From positions 1 to 39,050 of the IMG/VR virus record IMGVR_UViG_3300046837_000067: a stretch of DNA of 39,050 nucleotides. One strand, 5' to 3'. Shown here in pieces: positions 25,595-34,068 of the stretch. Under the pieces are notes generated by a model. That model saw nothing but the letters and a program-made list of their open reading frames with translations. It searched no databases and had not been told where the DNA came from. This DNA is from a virus. The translations under genes were made by a program, and so were the position numbers. Numbering within the stretch: position 1 is the stretch's first letter; the number at the start of each line of letters is the position of its first letter.

Positions 25595-26893
25595 CTAGCG
25601 TGCCCTCGCGAGCCGCTTGATCTCTTGTGCAGTCGGAGCGACGATCTTCGGCTTGGTGTCCGTGCGTTCGCGCTTCTGACGTGCCCGCGTGTCCTCGTAG
25701 AACTCCGCGAGACCGGGCGTTGTGTGCTCTGGCTGCCTGTTCTCCAGCACCCACTTCTTGGCTCCAGCACCGAGGCGCTGGCGAAGTTGGGCATCCTCGA
25801 TCAAGAGGGACAGCTTCTGGACGAACTCAGCAGGGGTGTCGAAGAGGAGACCAGAAACACCATCCTTGATCTCTTTGTACGGTTCGGTGTTCTGTGCGAG
25901 TGTGGCTTCGGGTCGGGGCATGATCGACGCCTCGTACCACTTGATCGCTGACTTGCATCGGTTGAATGCGTTGTCCACGAGCGGGCAGAGGTTGATGTCT
26001 GCATTCAACAGGGTGCGGTAGAGCTTGTACGCCGGGTAGTCCACCCAGCTATGGTGCTCAACCTGTGCATCCGGGATCGCCTCGTGGATGAAGGGGAACC
26101 ACTCACCGAAGATGACCCACTTGACCTTCGGATACTTCATGGCAACTTCGTGGATCGCTGAACGGAGTGGGTACCAGTCCACGATGTGGGACGCGGAGCC
26201 CTGCCAGATGATTCGGACTTCATCGGGGTCATCACGCTGGACCTTGAATGGACAAGCGTAGTCCTTCAGCACAATCGTGTTCGGGTAGACGTGGACGTTC
26301 TTCTGACCGATCACGTCCCGGAAGTACGACGCGAGGGCCGGAGTTGAGACCGTGGCGCCATGGCAAGCCCGGATGATCTCGTGACGCACCTTCATCTGAT
26401 GGAGGTTGCGTGCGATGTCAAAGACGAACGGACCAGAGGTAGTCTCCAAGTCCGACCAGCAGCCATGCTTCTCACCCGTGTGGTCTGCCCACTCAAGCTG
26501 CATCCCGGGGACCAAGAGCTTCGCGTCAGGGTAGCCCCGGACACCAAGGTGGACGAAGGTGCTGTTGAACGGGTGAACGAAGTCGGTGTTGTCGTCCGTG
26601 TCGTAGATGAAAGCCGGAGGGACACGAAGCTCCCCATCCTTCATCGCCGGAGCCATGGCATTGATCGACTTGATCTTGTGCAGCGTGGCCTCACCCGCAA
26701 GGGAGTAGTACTGAATCACGTCGGCATGGAACATCGTCGCCATAGCCTCACGCTGGTTCTCACCCTTGTCCTCGTAGCTCTGGATACCGAAGAGGTCGAA
26801 GAGCGTGTTGAGAGGTGTGTTGATTCGGTAGTACTGACAGGCACCGGGGTTCTTCGCCTCGTTGCTCGTCCATACCCACAGTTTCTTGTCCAT
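25595..26893 (-). CDS. GT-B glycosyltransferase
   Basis: A 432-residue GT-B glycosyltransferase (group 1/GT4-like). The C-terminal part (residues about 310-365) carries the conserved K-W-Y-E-A-S, then E-P-Y-K-E-I-K-D-G-V-x-G-L-L-F-D-T-P, which is the nucleotide-sugar site of this class. The N-terminus has a YYRINTPL pattern, as in phage and host GTs that act on an unknown acceptor. It sits in the tail module after a small-protein cluster and before the tail adaptor, and its start site TAAGAAAGG includes the previous stop. It may glycosylate virion proteins, modified DNA or the cell surface. Confidence 0.85.
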   Translation of the reverse strand: MDKKLWVWTSNEAKNPGACQYYRINTPLNTLFDLFGIQSYEDKGENQREAMATMFHADVIQYYSLAGEATLHKIKSINAMAPAMKDGELRVPPAFIYDTDDNTDFVHPFNSTFVHLGVRGYPDAKLLVPGMQLEWADHTGEKHGCWSDLETTSGPFVFDIARNLHQMKVRHEIIRACHGATVSTPALASYFRDVIGQKNVHVYPNTIVLKDYACPFKVQRDDPDEVRIIWQGSASHIVDWYPLRSAIHEVAMKYPKVKWVIFGEWFPFIHEAIPDAQVEHHSWVDYPAYKLYRTLLNADINLCPLVDNAFNRCKSAIKWYEASIMPRPEATLAQNTEPYKEIKDGVSGLLFDTPAEFVQKLSLLIEDAQLRQRLGAGAKKWVLENRQPEHTTPGLAEFYEDTRARQKRERTDTKPKIVAPTAQEIKRLARAR

Positions 26894-27493: not shown

Positions 27494-27712
27494 TTAGTCC
27501 GTGTCGCTCGCAGGCGGCTGCTTGTTGGCCTTGCGAGCCTTCTGCACAGCCTGTGCGGCGGTAGACTTGTTCTTGGCCTGCGCGACGTACGCACTCTCCG
27601 TCTTGTCCATCTTCGTGCCCGTGAGTGTGTTACTCAGGGCCGTGTCATCGACGGGCTCGATCGGAGCAGAGTAGTTGCCAGCACGAGCAGTCGCGAGATT
27701 CTTGCGTGCCAT
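27494..27712 (-). CDS. Small basic MARK-type protein
   Basis: A 72-residue protein beginning MARKNLATARAGNYS. It shares the M-A-R-K start with its neighbours. The rest is polar, Ala/Lys-rich (residues 45-65 form a basic helix). There is a 2-nt gap from the upstream gene. Its site is weak (GAAGGGG), so coupling to upstream translation is likely. Function unknown. Confidence 0.55.
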   Translation of the reverse strand: MARKNLATARAGNYSAPIEPVDDTALSNTLTGTKMDKTESAYVAQAKNKSTAAQAVQKARKANKQPPASDTD

Positions 27713-27714
27713 GG

Positions 27715-27891
27715 TTACCCCTTCACGCGCTTCAGGTGTGAGTTGGCTTTCTTCGCAGACGCTGAAGCCTTACGGGTGGACGCAGCGATCATCGCCTTGC
27801 CTGCTTCGAGGCTTTCGCCCTCGCCCGCTGCGGCCTGTTCTGCTGCCTTCTCGAAGCCAATGTGGCGCTTCGCTGGGTTGTGACGAGCCAT
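27715..27891 (-). CDS. Small basic MARH-type protein
   Basis: A 58-residue protein beginning MARHNPAKRHIGF. It is basic, and its Ala-rich middle ends in a Lys-rich tail (S-H-L-K-R-V-K-G). It starts 1 nt after the stop of the next gene upstream, after GGGAG. It is too small for strong family assignment. Together with the similar neighbours it looks like a run of one family or of proteins with a shared N-terminal feature. Confidence 0.5.
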   Translation of the reverse strand: MARHNPAKRHIGFEKAAEQAAAGEGESLEAGKAMIAASTRKASASAKKANSHLKRVKG

Positions 27892-27892
27892 G

Positions 27893-28042
27893 TTACTTGG
27901 CTCCCTTGCGGAGCTTGGACTTGGCGTTGTCAGCTTTCGTGGCCTTCAACTCCTGTTCGCGTTCCGCGATGGGCTCACCAGCCTCTTCGGCTGCGGAGTC
28001 CGGCGTCACTTCTCCACGTTCTTTGATCTTCTTGCGTGCCAC
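27893..28042 (-). CDS. Small basic MARK-type protein with GTG start
   Basis: A 49-residue protein beginning MARKKIKERGEV. The start is GTG, which overlaps the upstream TAG by one base (TAGTG), and GGAGGTG lies upstream. It is highly charged, with a Lys/Glu-rich helix and K-L-R-K-G-A-K tail. Function unknown. Confidence 0.48.
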   Translation of the reverse strand: MARKKIKERGEVTPDSAAEEAGEPIAEREQELKATKADNAKSKLRKGAK

Positions 28043-28248
28043 TAGACACCTCCCTTACTCGGCTTCATCACCGGTACGGTATTGATCTTCGGGGCTTTCG
28101 GCACTGCACGAGCATTCGTAGAGACGAACGAGTTCGCAGCACGGCGGCCCAACATTGCTCCCGCATCAGCGAGAGGCTTTCCAGCCGGGGTCTTCATGAC
28201 CGGCGCGATGAGTGGCCGCTGTTTCGCGGCGTTCTTACGGGCAGCCAT
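28042..28248 (-). CDS. Small basic MAARK-type protein
   Basis: A 68-residue protein beginning MAARKNAAKQRPL, basic throughout and rich in Pro, Ala and Lys (for example K-P-S-K-G-G-V at the end). It begins 1 nt after the upstream stop. No cysteines or membrane span. Its N-terminal MAARKN matches the MARKN of the gene at 27712, which suggests a common signal or shared ancestry. Function unknown. Confidence 0.5.
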   Translation of the reverse strand: MAARKNAAKQRPLIAPVMKTPAGKPLADAGAMLGRRAANSFVSTNARAVPKAPKINTVPVMKPSKGGV

Positions 28249-28249
28249 C

Positions 28250-28510
28250 TTACTTCTTCCCCTTGCTCGCTGCCTTGAAGTGGGCATGCAGAGCATCGAC
28301 GTGAGCCTTGGCCGCTGCCACTTCAGGCGATTCCTGTTGCTGGAGTTCAGCAGGCAGGAGGTTCTCGCCCTCGCTGGGCATCGGCTTCCGCACCTTGTTG
28401 CCGAGAGCGTAGAGCGCACTGTGCATCTCGCTCAACTTCTTCTCATGTGGGCTCTGCTCCGGCACAGAGATCATGCCTCGGGAAACCGAGGCTCTCTTCC
28501 GGCCAGCCAT
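28250..28510 (-). CDS. Small basic MAGRK-type protein
   Basis: An 86-residue protein beginning MAGRKRASVSRG. A helical middle (residues 22-42) is followed by an acidic Gln/Glu part and a Lys-rich end (A-S-K-G-K-K). ATG overlaps the upstream stop by one base (TAATG). It shares the N-terminus with MAGRRSP at 31670. Function unknown; it is likely a minor virion protein. Confidence 0.52.
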   Translation of the reverse strand: MAGRKRASVSRGMISVPEQSPHEKKLSEMHSALYALGNKVRKPMPSEGENLLPAELQQQESPEVAAAKAHVDALHAHFKAASKGKK

Positions 28511-28809
28511 TAGCGTGCGCCGGGCTTCGCCGGATACGGGTCGGCACCACCACCGGACGCCTTGTTGCGCCGGTCTCCCATGTCAGGGAGCGTGATGGGC
28601 TGCTTGCCATAGGACCCGGGCATCGACGGGTTGTCCCCGCAGGGCCACTTGTCCTCGTCCTCGACAGTGCCGAGAACCGGCTCGATGTGATCGTGCGTCG
28701 GCGAGGGCAGAGACTCCTTCCCACTCATGTCCGGCACGCTGCCCTCGCTGCCGGGCATATGGGGCTCAACAGGCTTGTCCCAGTTCGGGATCGGTTGAAG
28801 CAAACTCAT
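28510..28809 (-). CDS. Hypothetical Pro/Gly-rich small protein
   Basis: A 99-residue protein beginning MSLLQPIPNWDKP. The ATG is set at 28809 because AAGGAG lies 6 nt upstream; a TTG two codons further up has no better site. It is rich in Pro, Gly, Asp and has no cysteine pairs or membrane segment. It lies just downstream of the capsid gene block, so it may be a minor head protein. No family is recognised. Confidence 0.5.
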   Translation of the reverse strand: MSLLQPIPNWDKPVEPHMPGSEGSVPDMSGKESLPSPTHDHIEPVLGTVEDEDKWPCGDNPSMPGSYGKQPITLPDMGDRRNKASGGGADPYPAKPGAR

Positions 28810-28827: not shown

Positions 28828-29043
28828 TTAGCCGCGATTTCTGAGGTCTTTCCCGTCAGCGAACGGAGGCATCGAGAACGCGGGAGCGTCACCCTGCGAC
28901 TGCCCGTTGTTCTCCGCGTCCTTCGTATCGAAGTTCAGCGCATCGATGAACTCGGGAGGATTGCTGCTGATTGCGAAGCCGTCGATCGGGGGGACTGGAC
29001 CGTTCCCGTCGTGGCTCTTCTTGACGTACCCACCACTTCCCAT
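28828..29043 (-). CDS. Small hypothetical protein
   Basis: A 71-residue Gly/Asn/Asp-rich protein beginning MGSGGYVKKSHDG. GGAGG lies 4 nt before this ATG. A longer form from 29061 would start with TTG inside the hairpin region. It is probably disordered and may be a head-associated protein. It is the first gene after the hairpin that follows the capsid gene. Confidence 0.48.
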   Translation of the reverse strand: MGSGGYVKKSHDGNGPVPPIDGFAISSNPPEFIDALNFDTKDAENNGQSQGDAPAFSMPPFADGKDLRNRG

Positions 29044-29110: not shown

Positions 29111-30142
29111 TTAGGTGACGGAACTCTTGTTGTTCACAGCCAGCATGCGGCCGTTCGCCTTCTCGTTGAGGACTTCGAGGGTGACCTCGCCGACCACGAT
29201 ACCGGCAACCGAGTCGCCACGCTTCCCGACAAGCTGGTGCGTCATCGGACGCAGCCACGCGAGGCGGTTCATGTTGCGCTGGAGGAAGAACATCTGGCCG
29301 CCCGTCGCCGTTGCACTGGCCGTAGCAGTCGTGAGGTTCGTGGACTCCGGCACCCAACGATCGAGGACAACCTGAATCAGACCGAAGTCCGAGTCATAGA
29401 AGTCGATCGCCGACACCAGCTTCTTGTCCACCGCCGCGATGTTGCGCGCGTGAGGCTGACCAGCCGCCGCACCGGGAACGGTGAACGCGCTGACCTGACG
29501 CTTGATCTTCGGGGACACATAGACCTGCTCCGGATTACCGCCAGAGCGGTAAATCTGTTCGAGCATGTCGTTGAAGTCGCCCGCCGAAAGCTGACCATCC
29601 GCCGCCGTGGTACCAACCGTGGTGCCGCCCGCGTTGGTACCCGCGAGGCCCGTGTTGGTCACGATGAACGACTGGAAGCTCTTGAACACACGCTGGGTGG
29701 CAGAAGCGCCCGTCGCGGTCGTGAGAGCCGCGAAGACCATCTTCTCCAGCTTGATCGCGAGTCGCTTCGTCGCCTTCTGGATTTCGTAGGCATAGGCATC
29801 CTTGAAGCCAGCAGAATCGACAGCGCGCTGGGTCTCGGAAACACCGATGTCCTGACGGAGGATCGCAGTGACGTTGAACTCACGGTTCGGCGTGGTGCTG
29901 GTGTCGTATGCGTAATCCGCACCTTCAACAGCACTCGACGTGTCCACGGTACCGAGGGTATCCTGAAGCCACTGGTGGTAGACGTGCTGGCACGCCACCT
30001 TCGGGGCCTGAGAAACCCACGGGGTATCCCAAGGATCGACATTCACGATCTGATCGAGAAGGTCTTCCTTGTTGACGCCTGAGCCCGGCGAGATGCCGAA
30101 CTTATAGACGCCCGCATTTCCAATAGGAGTCGAACCCGGCAT
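29111..30142 (-). CDS. Major capsid protein (SU10/DUF5309-like)
   Basis: A 343-residue protein. The N-terminal stretch (residues about 30-70: V-N-V-D-P-W-D-T-P-W-V-S, then a W-Q-D-T segment) and the middle helix R-Q-D-I-G-V-S-E-T-Q match the SU10-type HK97-fold capsid family (DUF5309). The C-terminus has L-A-W-L-R-P and G-E-V-T-L-E-V-L-N. It builds the icosahedral shell. ATG follows TAGGAGGTC. It lies after the scaffold-like gene and is followed by a stable hairpin. Confidence 0.85.
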   Translation of the reverse strand: MPGSTPIGNAGVYKFGISPGSGVNKEDLLDQIVNVDPWDTPWVSQAPKVACQHVYHQWLQDTLGTVDTSSAVEGADYAYDTSTTPNREFNVTAILRQDIGVSETQRAVDSAGFKDAYAYEIQKATKRLAIKLEKMVFAALTTATGASATQRVFKSFQSFIVTNTGLAGTNAGGTTVGTTAADGQLSAGDFNDMLEQIYRSGGNPEQVYVSPKIKRQVSAFTVPGAAAGQPHARNIAAVDKKLVSAIDFYDSDFGLIQVVLDRWVPESTNLTTATASATATGGQMFFLQRNMNRLAWLRPMTHQLVGKRGDSVAGIVVGEVTLEVLNEKANGRMLAVNNKSSVT

Positions 30143-30257: not shown

Positions 30258-31415
30258 CTAGTCGAACAGCGGACCGGTGAGGTCCTTACCGATCGTCAGA
30301 GCCCGCCACCGGACACCAAGACCCGTGGCATTCATCTCACGGGCTGCGGAGGCGATTTCGCCCTCGCTGGGGCCGACGTTGGGTGACTCATGAGTACCGG
30401 TAACGGAAGTGGCCGAGACGCCCGCTTGCTTTCGCGCGGCATCGACAGCCTCTCTGCGAACTTGCTCCTGTGCTGCACCTTCGATTTCCCTCTTCTGTGC
30501 AGCAGCCTGCTCTTCGGTTGTCAGCGGCACCTCCGGGGGCAGGGTTCTCTCGAACGCCTCCCACGCGAGGGACGTGGCACCGATATGATCCCCCTGAGCA
30601 GACAAGGCGTGAACCGCCTTCGCGAGCACGGGATGGCTCTTAACGTACAAGCCCATCTCGTCAACGAAATCAACAGAGCGCGGGTAGGTAACAGCCATGT
30701 GCCTGTCAACCGCATTCCATAGTTCGTTCTGCTCCTGCGACGCTCTCTCGCGCGCATTGAGCTTTGCATCCACAAGCAGGTTGGCTTCGAGTCTGGACTG
30801 GTCGCTAATCCCGTCCATCAAAGCCACCATGTTCTCCGCGTCGAGCATTCCACCTTCCTCGGCGATCTTCGCGAGCACCTTCGCGAGTTTCTCACTCTTC
30901 ACGGGAGCCGCAGCCAGCGAAGCCGCAACCTCCGTGAGTGTGGTCGGAGCCGCAGCGGGGGCTGCTGCGGGTGATGTGACGACGGCTGCGGTACCCGCGC
31001 GGAGGTCCGAGAGTTCCTTCTCCAGAGCCGCATTGCGCGTGAACGCTTCCTTCGCCATGTTGACGACGTTGCCGACACCCTTGACCAGTTCGGACTTGGA
31101 CGTATACTTGCCCGCGTACTTGCCGGTTGCAGGATCACGAAGCGACTCCCAGTCGATCGTGTCTGCGGGTGCTTTCGCAACTTCCTCACCCTTCGGAGCA
31201 GATGCGGGATCGGGGGTAGTCCCCTTCGCAACGACTGCCTCGGGAGTTGGTGCCTCGCCCGGCGCCGGGTTGTCCGTCTTCGGGGCGAGAGGGGGTGGAG
31301 TCCCCTGCTGCCAGCCATGGGCTTCCATGACCTCCACAACTTCAGGTCCAACGATGTTGTCTGCGATGCTACGCAGGAGCTTCTGGTCAGCTTCGGTGTT
31401 GCCGTAGGCACTCAT
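30258..31415 (-). CDS. Scaffold-like protein
   Basis: A 385-residue protein immediately before the capsid gene in transcription order. Its N-terminal third is Pro/Ala/Glu-rich and disordered (residues 40-85), followed by charged helices and a Glu/Gln-rich coiled part (about 280-340), like phage scaffolding proteins. It has no enzyme motif (no serine protease triad seen). The ATG lies 60 nt after the DUF6496-like gene starts its reading in the other direction of the operon order. Role inferred from position and composition. Confidence 0.55.
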   Translation of the reverse strand: MSAYGNTEADQKLLRSIADNIVGPEVVEVMEAHGWQQGTPPPLAPKTDNPAPGEAPTPEAVVAKGTTPDPASAPKGEEVAKAPADTIDWESLRDPATGKYAGKYTSKSELVKGVGNVVNMAKEAFTRNAALEKELSDLRAGTAAVVTSPAAAPAAAPTTLTEVAASLAAAPVKSEKLAKVLAKIAEEGGMLDAENMVALMDGISDQSRLEANLLVDAKLNARERASQEQNELWNAVDRHMAVTYPRSVDFVDEMGLYVKSHPVLAKAVHALSAQGDHIGATSLAWEAFERTLPPEVPLTTEEQAAAQKREIEGAAQEQVRREAVDAARKQAGVSATSVTGTHESPNVGPSEGEIASAAREMNATGLGVRWRALTIGKDLTGPLFD

Positions 31416-31475: not shown

Positions 31476-31670
31476 CTACTTGTCGTAACCTCCGGCGTTC
31501 TCCTTCTTCTGTTCGGAGATGCCAATCGCGACCGCCTGCTTGGGGTTCGTGACGAGCTTGCCAGTCTTGCTCCCTGAGTGGAGTTCCTTATGCTTGAACT
31601 CGTGCATAGCTTTCTCCACCTTGTTCACTCGGCCCTCAGCAACCTTGACCGGTGACCTGCGTCCAGCCAT
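31476..31670 (-). CDS. Small basic DUF6496-like protein
   Basis: A 64-residue protein beginning MAGRRSPVKVAEG. The segment V-M/A-M-H-E-F-K-H-K-E-L-H-S-G-S-K-x-G, then T-N-P-K-Q-A-V-A-I, matches the widespread phage DUF6496 pattern. Its function is not known. It lies between a 134-residue gene and the scaffold-like gene. Its start shares MA-x-R with the cluster at 27494-28510. ATG is 1 nt after the upstream stop, so it is coupled. Confidence 0.7.
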   Translation of the reverse strand: MAGRRSPVKVAEGRVNKVEKAMHEFKHKELHSGSKTGKLVTNPKQAVAIGISEQKKENAGGYDK

Positions 31671-32088: not shown

Positions 32089-34068
32089 CTACGCCGCCTG
32101 TACTGGAGGAAGCGTGTTCTGGATACTGCCCGGTCCACCCGTGCCCGGTGAACGGGGAAGCGGGAGGGCGGCAGCGCCTTGCTCTACGACCTGTCCGGAT
32201 GTCGGGACGTTCTGGAGCCCGCCCTGTCCACCGGTTGCTTGGTTGATGAGTTGCCCGAACTGCGTGCCCGCACCACCCGTCTGGCCGTTGAAGATTTCGT
32301 TCATGTTCGGGACCTCGAACGCACGGAAGATCGAGCGCCAGAAGTTGGTGGCATTGATCGCCCCCATCACTGACTGTCCGACCGGCGTGCCGAGAGCCTG
32401 AAGCAGGCCCATCAGGTTCTGCTGCATCGTGCCCTTGGACAACTGCATTGACGCACCCATCGCGCGAGCCGCGTAGTTCATCAACATGTCCTGCTCGTTG
32501 ACGATCTCACGCGTACCGTTGATAGGGTTGCCCGTCACCGGATCGATGCGGGCACCGTCACCGAGAATCTTGATCTCGGCGGGGGTATCAAGGAACTGCT
32601 TGTCCATGGCGACCATCATGTTCGCCTGCACTTCGAGCGACATCTCTTCGTAGATACGCGCTTCGAGCGAGAGGCGGTTACCGGCTGCCTCACGGCGGCC
32701 GATGAACTCTCGGGCAGTCTGACGACTGTCACCTCCGAGCCCCTGAACGGCATCATCAACGATGCCTGTGCCCTGCTGCGCGTACTGGTTGACCATCGCG
32801 ATCCGCTGATCTGCAACGGTAAGACCGTTGAGGTCTTTCTGCATCGTCGCAATGACCTGTCCCGGGTTGCCATCCACCGGAATGAAGCGGCCGGGTCGGG
32901 CGTACAGGGACTTCGTGTTGAGGTTGGCCCCGCGATCGTAGAACCACATCGGATCGATCAGCAAGTCGGCCGAGTCGAGTGACTGGTTCAGGTAGCGGTT
33001 GCCGATGATCTGGAGCTTCTCGATGATCTCACCCTTGCCCGGCGCGTAGAAGTAGTGCGGGTCGGGAGTCGGAGAGAACGACGTGAAGGGGAGCTTCTTG
33101 TGCCAGAACGGATTCGGCTTGTTCCGGAGCATGTAGCGGCGGTTGGCAACCGTGATGACACGCTTCAGTTCCCCATCAGGGGTGAGTTCGGAAGGCACCT
33201 CGCCCCAGAACTCAAGGATTTCGATCGGGCGCGAGTACTTGTCCATCCAGCGAATCGACTCATCATCCATGCCAGCGCGGGTAGCGAAGCGCCGGATCAT
33301 GGACTGCTGGTCCGCGATCTGGGAGTTGACCCCACCCTCACGGCCGATGCGAGCGACTTCGCGGGCGTCGTAGATGCCCTGTTTCGCCATGTACTGCACG
33401 TCGTCCCAGTCGAGGAAGAAGCGACGGACGACCCACTTCATGTCCTTCAGGCGCTTGACGCCGGGCTGCGGGAAGAAGTCGAGGAGGTCCACCTGCTCAG
33501 TGACAGGGCCGTCGTAGGTGATGACGTTGCCCTTCTTGATTGAGCGGATGATCTTGCCCGAGATGGGCATGCGATCGATGGACTCCAGAATCTGGAACTC
33601 TTCCTTGCGGCACCAACCGTGTTGCTGGATGCCAACGCCATAGAGGTCAGCCGAGACGATGTGATCGACCTGCTTCATGAAGCAGTCGTCATCCTTCATC
33701 TGGGCGGCAATCAGGCCCTCCCACTTGCGACAGACGGACGAGTCATCAGGACCGTAGCCCACAAAAGCCATGATGGGATAGGTCGAGAGGGAGGTCGCAG
33801 CCTTACGGGCTGCGTCGGACCAGATCGCAGAGTAGATGAGCGGGATGTGGGCGTTGTTCTTGTGCGGGTGGAAGCGGCCAGTCCATGTGCCACGCCAGAG
33901 ATCGTACAGCCGGGGGAACCGTTGACGGACACCCGTGAAGTACATCTCGGAGAGCTTCATCCGCGACACGACCACGTCGCACATCTGGGCGCGGTATGCT
34001 TCCTCGCCCTGTGCCTTCTCGATTGCGATCGAGGAGTGGCTTGTCAGTGGATCGTTCATCAGGGGCAT
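32089..34068 (-). CDS. Portal protein
   Basis: A 659-residue protein. The N-terminal R-L-Y-D-L-W-R-G-T-W-T-G and R-F-H-P-H-K-N-N-A-H-I-P-L-I-Y motifs, followed by a long helical and beta core, fit podovirus-type portal proteins (600-750 residues). The C-terminus is Gly/Gln/Pro-rich, as in many portals. It forms the ring through which DNA is packaged. ATG is at 34068, with AAGGAG just upstream formed from the last codons of the exonuclease gene. It lies near terminase, scaffold and capsid genes, as expected. Confidence 0.78.
   Translation of the reverse strand: MPLMNDPLTSHSSIAIEKAQGEEAYRAQMCDVVVSRMKLSEMYFTGVRQRFPRLYDLWRGTWTGRFHPHKNNAHIPLIYSAIWSDAARKAATSLSTYPIMAFVGYGPDDSSVCRKWEGLIAAQMKDDDCFMKQVDHIVSADLYGVGIQQHGWCRKEEFQILESIDRMPISGKIIRSIKKGNVITYDGPVTEQVDLLDFFPQPGVKRLKDMKWVVRRFFLDWDDVQYMAKQGIYDAREVARIGREGGVNSQIADQQSMIRRFATRAGMDDESIRWMDKYSRPIEILEFWGEVPSELTPDGELKRVITVANRRYMLRNKPNPFWHKKLPFTSFSPTPDPHYFYAPGKGEIIEKLQIIGNRYLNQSLDSADLLIDPMWFYDRGANLNTKSLYARPGRFIPVDGNPGQVIATMQKDLNGLTVADQRIAMVNQYAQQGTGIVDDAVQGLGGDSRQTAREFIGRREAAGNRLSLEARIYEEMSLEVQANMMVAMDKQFLDTPAEIKILGDGARIDPVTGNPINGTREIVNEQDMLMNYAARAMGASMQLSKGTMQQNLMGLLQALGTPVGQSVMGAINATNFWRSIFRAFEVPNMNEIFNGQTGGAGTQFGQLINQATGGQGGLQNVPTSGQVVEQGAAALPLPRSPGTGGPGSIQNTLPPVQAA

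Follow-up and report, generated by a model that had tools for sequence, protein, structure and literature searches.

Capsid-targeting termini are already known, and the motif described here would be a further version of them if the mechanism proposed below holds. In phage T4, a short conserved N-terminal sequence (CTS) encapsidates diverse small internal proteins into the scaffolding core (PMC3012670). The present case resembles it in that a short conserved terminus was found on several otherwise different small proteins; it differs in the phage type and major capsid protein (MCP) family, in the R-x-x-P motif itself and in the possibility of C-terminal placement, and while the CTS packages proteins, packaging is a proposal here. 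No prohead-protease hit was obtained among the head genes scanned, and several head genes had no family hit. In phage P1, DarB is directed to the capsid by its N-terminal residues, which do the same for a fused reporter (PMC9024508), but DarB is one large protein and the authors found no Dar consensus, in contrast to the shared motif here. The small T7 core protein gp6.7 has an N-terminal loop (residues 2-15) that was resolved by portal-focused reconstruction (PMC11784390). Unlike the tagged proteins here, gp6.7 is a single protein; the location of its loop near the portal makes the portal barrel a possible tag site. Outside phages, encapsulin cargo (for example the SrpI cargo CyD) carries a terminal disordered targeting sequence that is read by an HK97-fold shell (PMC8049743), although encapsulins differ in being a cellular compartment with enzyme cargo, a longer targeting region and other motifs. 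The literature searched mentions neither the exact N-terminal strings reported below nor their motif, the spread of that motif over many families or its C-terminal form, and it yielded nothing on DUF6496.

Cultured SU10-type phages (LUZ24-like tf, phiM5, Venkman, RHph_Y25) have the same MCP family and portal-scaffold-MCP order as the locus studied here, but in them few short genes follow the MCP, and the tag is missing. Among 115 head-region genes from seven records of cultured SU10-type phages, none carried an R-x-x-P tag, and no comparable cluster of tagged genes was seen in the cultured relatives L133-L138 and L174.

Short tagged genes in the head module of the window

The window, a virus record of 39,050 bases, carries SU10-type capsid and portal genes (Table 1). 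It has no near DNA match among known phages, and its MCP is about 30% identical to those of cultured phages. On the minus strand the genes run from terminase, portal, a 134-aa gene, DUF6496 and probable scaffold to the MCP, followed by two acidic short genes, a cluster of five short genes, another short basic gene, a 140-aa gene, a glycosyltransferase and tail-like genes. The glycosyltransferase-like gene (25595-26893, PHROG 7162) separates the head genes from the tail genes, and most relatives have a long gene like it in this position. The position of the probable scaffold matches that of the annotated scaffolds of phiM5, tf and Venkman.

Table 1. Head-module features of the window (start, up to the first ten residues of each tagged product).
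Feature	Position	Strand	Start	Remarks
VGNY-family short gene	27494-27712	-	MARKNLATAR	72 aa, pI 9.6; MARKNL at 27695-27712, P lost
HIGF-family short gene	27715-27891	-	MARHNPAKR	58 aa, pI 10.4; canonical MARHNP at 27874-27891
Short gene	27893-28042	-	MARKKIKER	49 aa, GTG start; MARKKI at 28025-28042, P lost
Short gene	28042-28248	-	MAARKNAAK	68 aa, pI 12.0; MAARKNA at 28228-28248, A replaces P
DEMH-family short gene	28250-28510	-	MAGRKRASV	86 aa, helical body; MAGRKRA at 28490-28510, A replaces P
Acidic gene, MCP-to-cluster interval	28510-28809	-		Untagged
ACID-family gene, first after MCP	28828-29043	-		pI 4.5; untagged in the window
Major capsid protein	29111-30142	-		SU10_MCP PF17236, E 2.5e-67; PHROG 1328; candidate receptor
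Probable scaffolding protein	30258-31415	-		From position and composition; no PHROG hit; candidate receptor
DUF6496 gene, portal-scaffold gap	31476-31670	-	MAGRRSPVK	64 aa; canonical MAGRRSP at 31650-31670
Portal protein	32089-34068	-		Pfam PF23899 SU10_portal, E 3.4e-23; candidate receptor

A preliminary description had listed five consecutive genes and a sixth at 31670 with similar N-termini, and all six exist as described, on the minus strand. Their starts are backed by Shine-Dalgarno sites or stop/start overlaps with the upstream gene (TAATG at 28510 and TAGTG at 28042) and by orthologues in relatives; for gene 28250-28510 the gene caller picked an internal start, and the aligned orthologues favour the MAGRKR start. 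The genes had been placed beside the capsid, and they do lie near the MCP gene, but the two acidic untagged genes intervene. Many of the short genes of 27494-28510 and their relatives have K/G-rich ends (KGKK, GGK), whose codons serve also as the Shine-Dalgarno sequence of the next gene, directly before TAAC-ATG.

Among the six copies, only the HIGF and DUF6496 proteins keep the proline of the motif defined below; it is replaced by L, I, A and A in the other four, with similar erosion in the sister phages L002 and L003. The window is a poor illustration of the tag. The relatives of the same genes are more regular. VGNY proteins related to gene 27494-27712 start with MARRNP, MASKRGNP, MARKDP or MARKMP, those related to the DEMH gene start with MARKAP, MARSNP, MAKSRKNP or MAKRKSP, and the tag is present in 19 of 21 HIGF members. 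Gene 27893-28042 has a close orthologue in L002 and a related gene in L003. The ACID gene also has tagged orthologues (MARKNPTISG, MRKNPTMSK). The sixth tagged gene was identified as DUF6496 by Pfam PF20106 (E 1.9e-9, 38.2 bits against a curated cut-off of 24).

A terminal R-x-x-P motif in related phages

Relatives were collected as contigs encoding the same MCP (67 loci, then 75, in overlapping sets; 51-93% identical for the main set), and genes were called by a codon-plus-Shine-Dalgarno method blind to the tag. Homologues that keep the genes and lose the motif had been named as counter-evidence in the preliminary description; the check in relatives found the opposite, with a pattern that is sharper in about 55 related IMG/VR contigs than in the window. 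Its consensus is M-A-x(0-3)-R-x-[N/S/M/A/D/T]-P. The shared basic N-terminus reported earlier does recur, but its core is R-x-x-P and not basic residues alone. Scored within the first nine or ten residues of distinct gene starts, R-x-x-P occurred in 89 of 193 (46%) short genes downstream of the MCP, up to the tail genes, against 20 of 550 (3.6%) others (Fisher p = 5e-41), and most of these 20 were short genes of the portal-scaffold gap. No other R-to-P spacing was enriched (46% against at most 6%), and internal R-x-x-P occupied only 1.9% of sequence windows in the same proteins. Chance or composition is ruled out by this spacing specificity and the background rates. Of 487 distinct other gene starts in related contigs, one matched MA.?R[KRH], which makes five consecutive occurrences too many for chance.

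Up to eight tagged proteins were found per genome. In L044, six consecutive genes start with MAKRPNP, MARGNP, MAKSRKNP, MASKRGNP, MARKNP and MAGKRGNP, and more divergent clades have other flavours, as in L037 (MARKMP, MDRALP, MRRMP) and L085 (MARRKAP, MARQAP, MARQSP, MRKSP). The tagged proteins are basic (median pI 10.3, 89% above 9), with mostly R and K in the first tag positions.

The tag is carried by at least eight groups: ACID, LSQ, DUF6496, KEAK, VGNY, DEMH, HIGF and TETGA. In profile comparison with hhalign, no pair of distinct families reached a probability of 1% after correction of the KEAK set, which had wrongly included some DUF6496 members; these members had produced the apparent KEAK-DUF6496 link (97%), which fell to 0.4% on their removal. 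Body homology of the kind expected for one paralogous family was thus not detected among the distinct families, in agreement with the earlier impression that the bodies are unrelated beyond the shared start, and plain paralogy was rejected. In the first gene after the MCP, the tagged and untagged forms are orthologous (hhalign 95.8%, E 6.6e-9), so a gene already in place has acquired or lost the tag. Structure prediction gave helical bodies and a low-confidence tag in weak models (pTM 0.28 and 0.42), which is compatible with a flexible tag and no proof of one. A second motif, G-[NT]-Y-[ST]-A-x(2,3)-T-G, is present in VGNY and TETGA proteins (for example window gene 27494-27712, L126 and L121) and recurs in several paralogues per genome; profile comparison gave no link between the two families. 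The LSQ genes of L020 and L022, about 0.8-1.1 kb after the MCP end, contain repeated S-Q-x-V-x-N-P units with G-N-P between them.

The motif can stand at either end of a protein. DUF6496 proteins of the clade carry N-terminal tags such as MSKRRSP, MASRKMP and MGRTKPT, and the orthologues with an N-terminal tag have no tail. Conversely, tails of the R-x-N-P-L-x-G-T-R-x-R type were found on DUF6496 of L013, L015, L020, L022, L023, L030, L044, L046 and L099, encoded about 2.5 kb upstream of the MCP end. In L013, L023, L030, L046 and L099 the start is bare and the protein ends in ER-x-NPLxGTRxR; L020, L022 and L044 have a short variant, RNPL. This C-terminal version (R-x-N-P-L-x-G-[TK]-R-[KR]; tag sequence ERKNPLKGTRKR) occurs in genomes whose remaining tags are R-x-N-P. 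An unrelated MPYKS protein occupies the DUF6496 slot in L042 and has the C-terminus ERKNPLKGSRKRR. DUF6496 of L117 and L119 has RSRP near the C-terminus, and that of L050 is apparently truncated and untagged. The tag was absent from five DUF6496 proteins of other phages. C-terminal R-x-x-P is no broad feature, the convincing cases being the DUF6496 and MPYKS proteins.

The flavour of the tag (NP, MP or SP/AP) agrees within a genome across unrelated families. The residue before P was the same in 63% of within-genome pairs of unrelated tagged genes, against 34-39% when residues were permuted within families (p < 1/2000), and the agreement persisted among genomes with MCPs less than 80% or less than 75% identical (p = 0.003 and 0.007). 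Such covariation is what a common receptor would produce, with shared ancestry incompletely removed from the comparison.

Explanations for the shared terminus

The best explanation, which we hold with roughly even confidence, may be a docking peptide at the protein terminus that is recognised by one virion component common to all carriers, be it capsid, scaffold or portal, much as the CTS acts in T4; we consider it most likely because it accounts for a tag shared by unrelated bodies as well as for the operon, the coordinated flavours and the placement at either end. The terminus would be a short linear docking motif on many unrelated small proteins of the late head operon, and one phage-encoded partner in the assembling head, possibly the capsid inner face, the scaffold or the portal barrel, would read all copies of a phage and load the tagged proteins into the procapsid. 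Inside the head, the varied basic bodies could do different jobs, such as packing next to DNA, stabilising the core or portal, or ejection into the host. Both the virion nature of the partner and packaging as the outcome are our inference. The three readings in the preliminary description (capsid targeting, nucleic-acid binding and an initiation-region constraint) are borne out in part; that of capsid targeting gains indirectly from the head-operon restriction, unrelated bodies, genome-specific flavour and either-end placement, with virion location being the inferred element. Against docking stand the basic character of the tags, which makes DNA contact possible, the loss of P from four of six window copies and from L002 and L003, and the fact that cultured SU10-type phages build heads without such a tag. 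A wider proposal is more tentative: the peptide may be a clade-wide cargo address, usable at either end, recruited by unrelated small genes entering the late operon and co-evolving with one head receptor, that packages a changing set of small proteins into the head for delivery to the host.

The nearest rival, though an unlikely one, is a basic terminus that holds the small proteins on nucleic acid, either packaged or replicating DNA or else RNA, and does without a protein receptor. The basic tags and bodies agree with the earlier suggestion of nucleic-acid binding, but electrostatic binding would not be expected to impose a strict R-x-x-P spacing, one preferred residue before P in each genome, or D or N beside P, and an acidic family, the first gene after the MCP, is tagged too in relatives. 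Alternatively, the small proteins could share, through the tag, one site on the mature outer capsid, as decoration or cement. Terminal arms of small proteins are able to bind capsids, the tagged genes adjoin the MCP gene, and genome-wise coordination fits a capsid site. We still regard outer decoration as rather improbable, since a phage with as many as eight different basic decoration proteins would be unusual, as would DUF6496-like proteins in this role, and SU10 heads showed no density for minor capsid proteins (PMC9509320). Reading of the tag by a host enzyme or by a phage protein outside the particle seems more doubtful still: the coordination would follow from any partner in trans that the tags have in common, but the tag is mainly restricted to the late/head operon and its flavour tracks the phage genome. 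The tandem arrangement, and the several copies of some true paralogues (TETGA family), recall an ancient duplication of one gene of which only the start is still recognisable. This origin is very unlikely given bodies without profile similarity, a flavour that shifts jointly within a genome, and a tag that is C-terminal on DUF6496 and MPYKS proteins.

A constraint at the DNA level, whether a shared start region for translation initiation or a recombination site, can be addressed from the codons. Tags within one genome had 71% amino-acid identity over four core positions (R and P being fixed by the search pattern), and shared residues had identical codons in 38.1% of cases, where codon usage in the bodies predicts 39.1%; as codon identity equals expectation, the conservation lies in the peptide. 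Between orthologues, dN/dS was 0.20 for the tag and 0.19 for the body, with a looser stretch just after the tag (0.30); purifying selection on the tag equals that on the bodies. The codon comparison and these dN/dS values rule out initiation-region or recombination-site effects as the main cause. Codons 2-6 are slightly A/T-richer (GCA, AGA, AAT), as is common after start codons, but the identical motif at the C-termini of DUF6496 proteins, together with the codon comparison, refutes the earlier suggestion of an initiation constraint as main cause and leaves it hardly credible.

Should the tag serve for head loading, the cargo proteins of uncultured phages could be predicted by a sequence rule, and a minimal targeting peptide of about six residues would be available that occurs naturally at either the N- or the C-terminus. 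It would also open up a pool of small, rapidly changing phage proteins with a possible action on the host upon infection. The shift of the motif genome by genome offers natural paired variants for locating a receptor.

Distribution and neighbouring observations

The tag carriers form a group of uncultured soil-type phages. No MCP relative was found in GTDB genomes, and a comparison with 50,697 phage records gave no match at E < 1 for three tagged families. Distant MCP relatives (L059-L068) had no comparable tagged cluster, with isolated matches only in L059, L064 and L065. The VGNY family was found almost exclusively in this MCP clade; it also occurs in L198, where the capsid gene is less similar and the VGNY start, MTKRAVKV, lacks R-x-x-P. 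Tagged genes lie mainly in the late/head operon, where they occupy the gaps from MCP to tail and from portal to scaffold. In five larger genomes, further tagged short genes lie downstream of the large internal-protein-like genes and adjoin holin-like membrane proteins (neighbours named by eye, without a family hit).

The MCP gene is apparently split in L050, L111 and L126, possibly by an intron or insertion. L050 and L126 have a 36-aa N-terminal MCP piece about 1.6 kb before the MCP end, and the MCP match in L111 is about 1.5 kb long. In L002, a homing-endonuclease-like sequence (by eye) seems to be fused in frame ahead of the ACID-family gene, the first after the MCP (184 aa), and the intervening ORF in the split MCP of L126 likewise resembles a homing endonuclease by eye.
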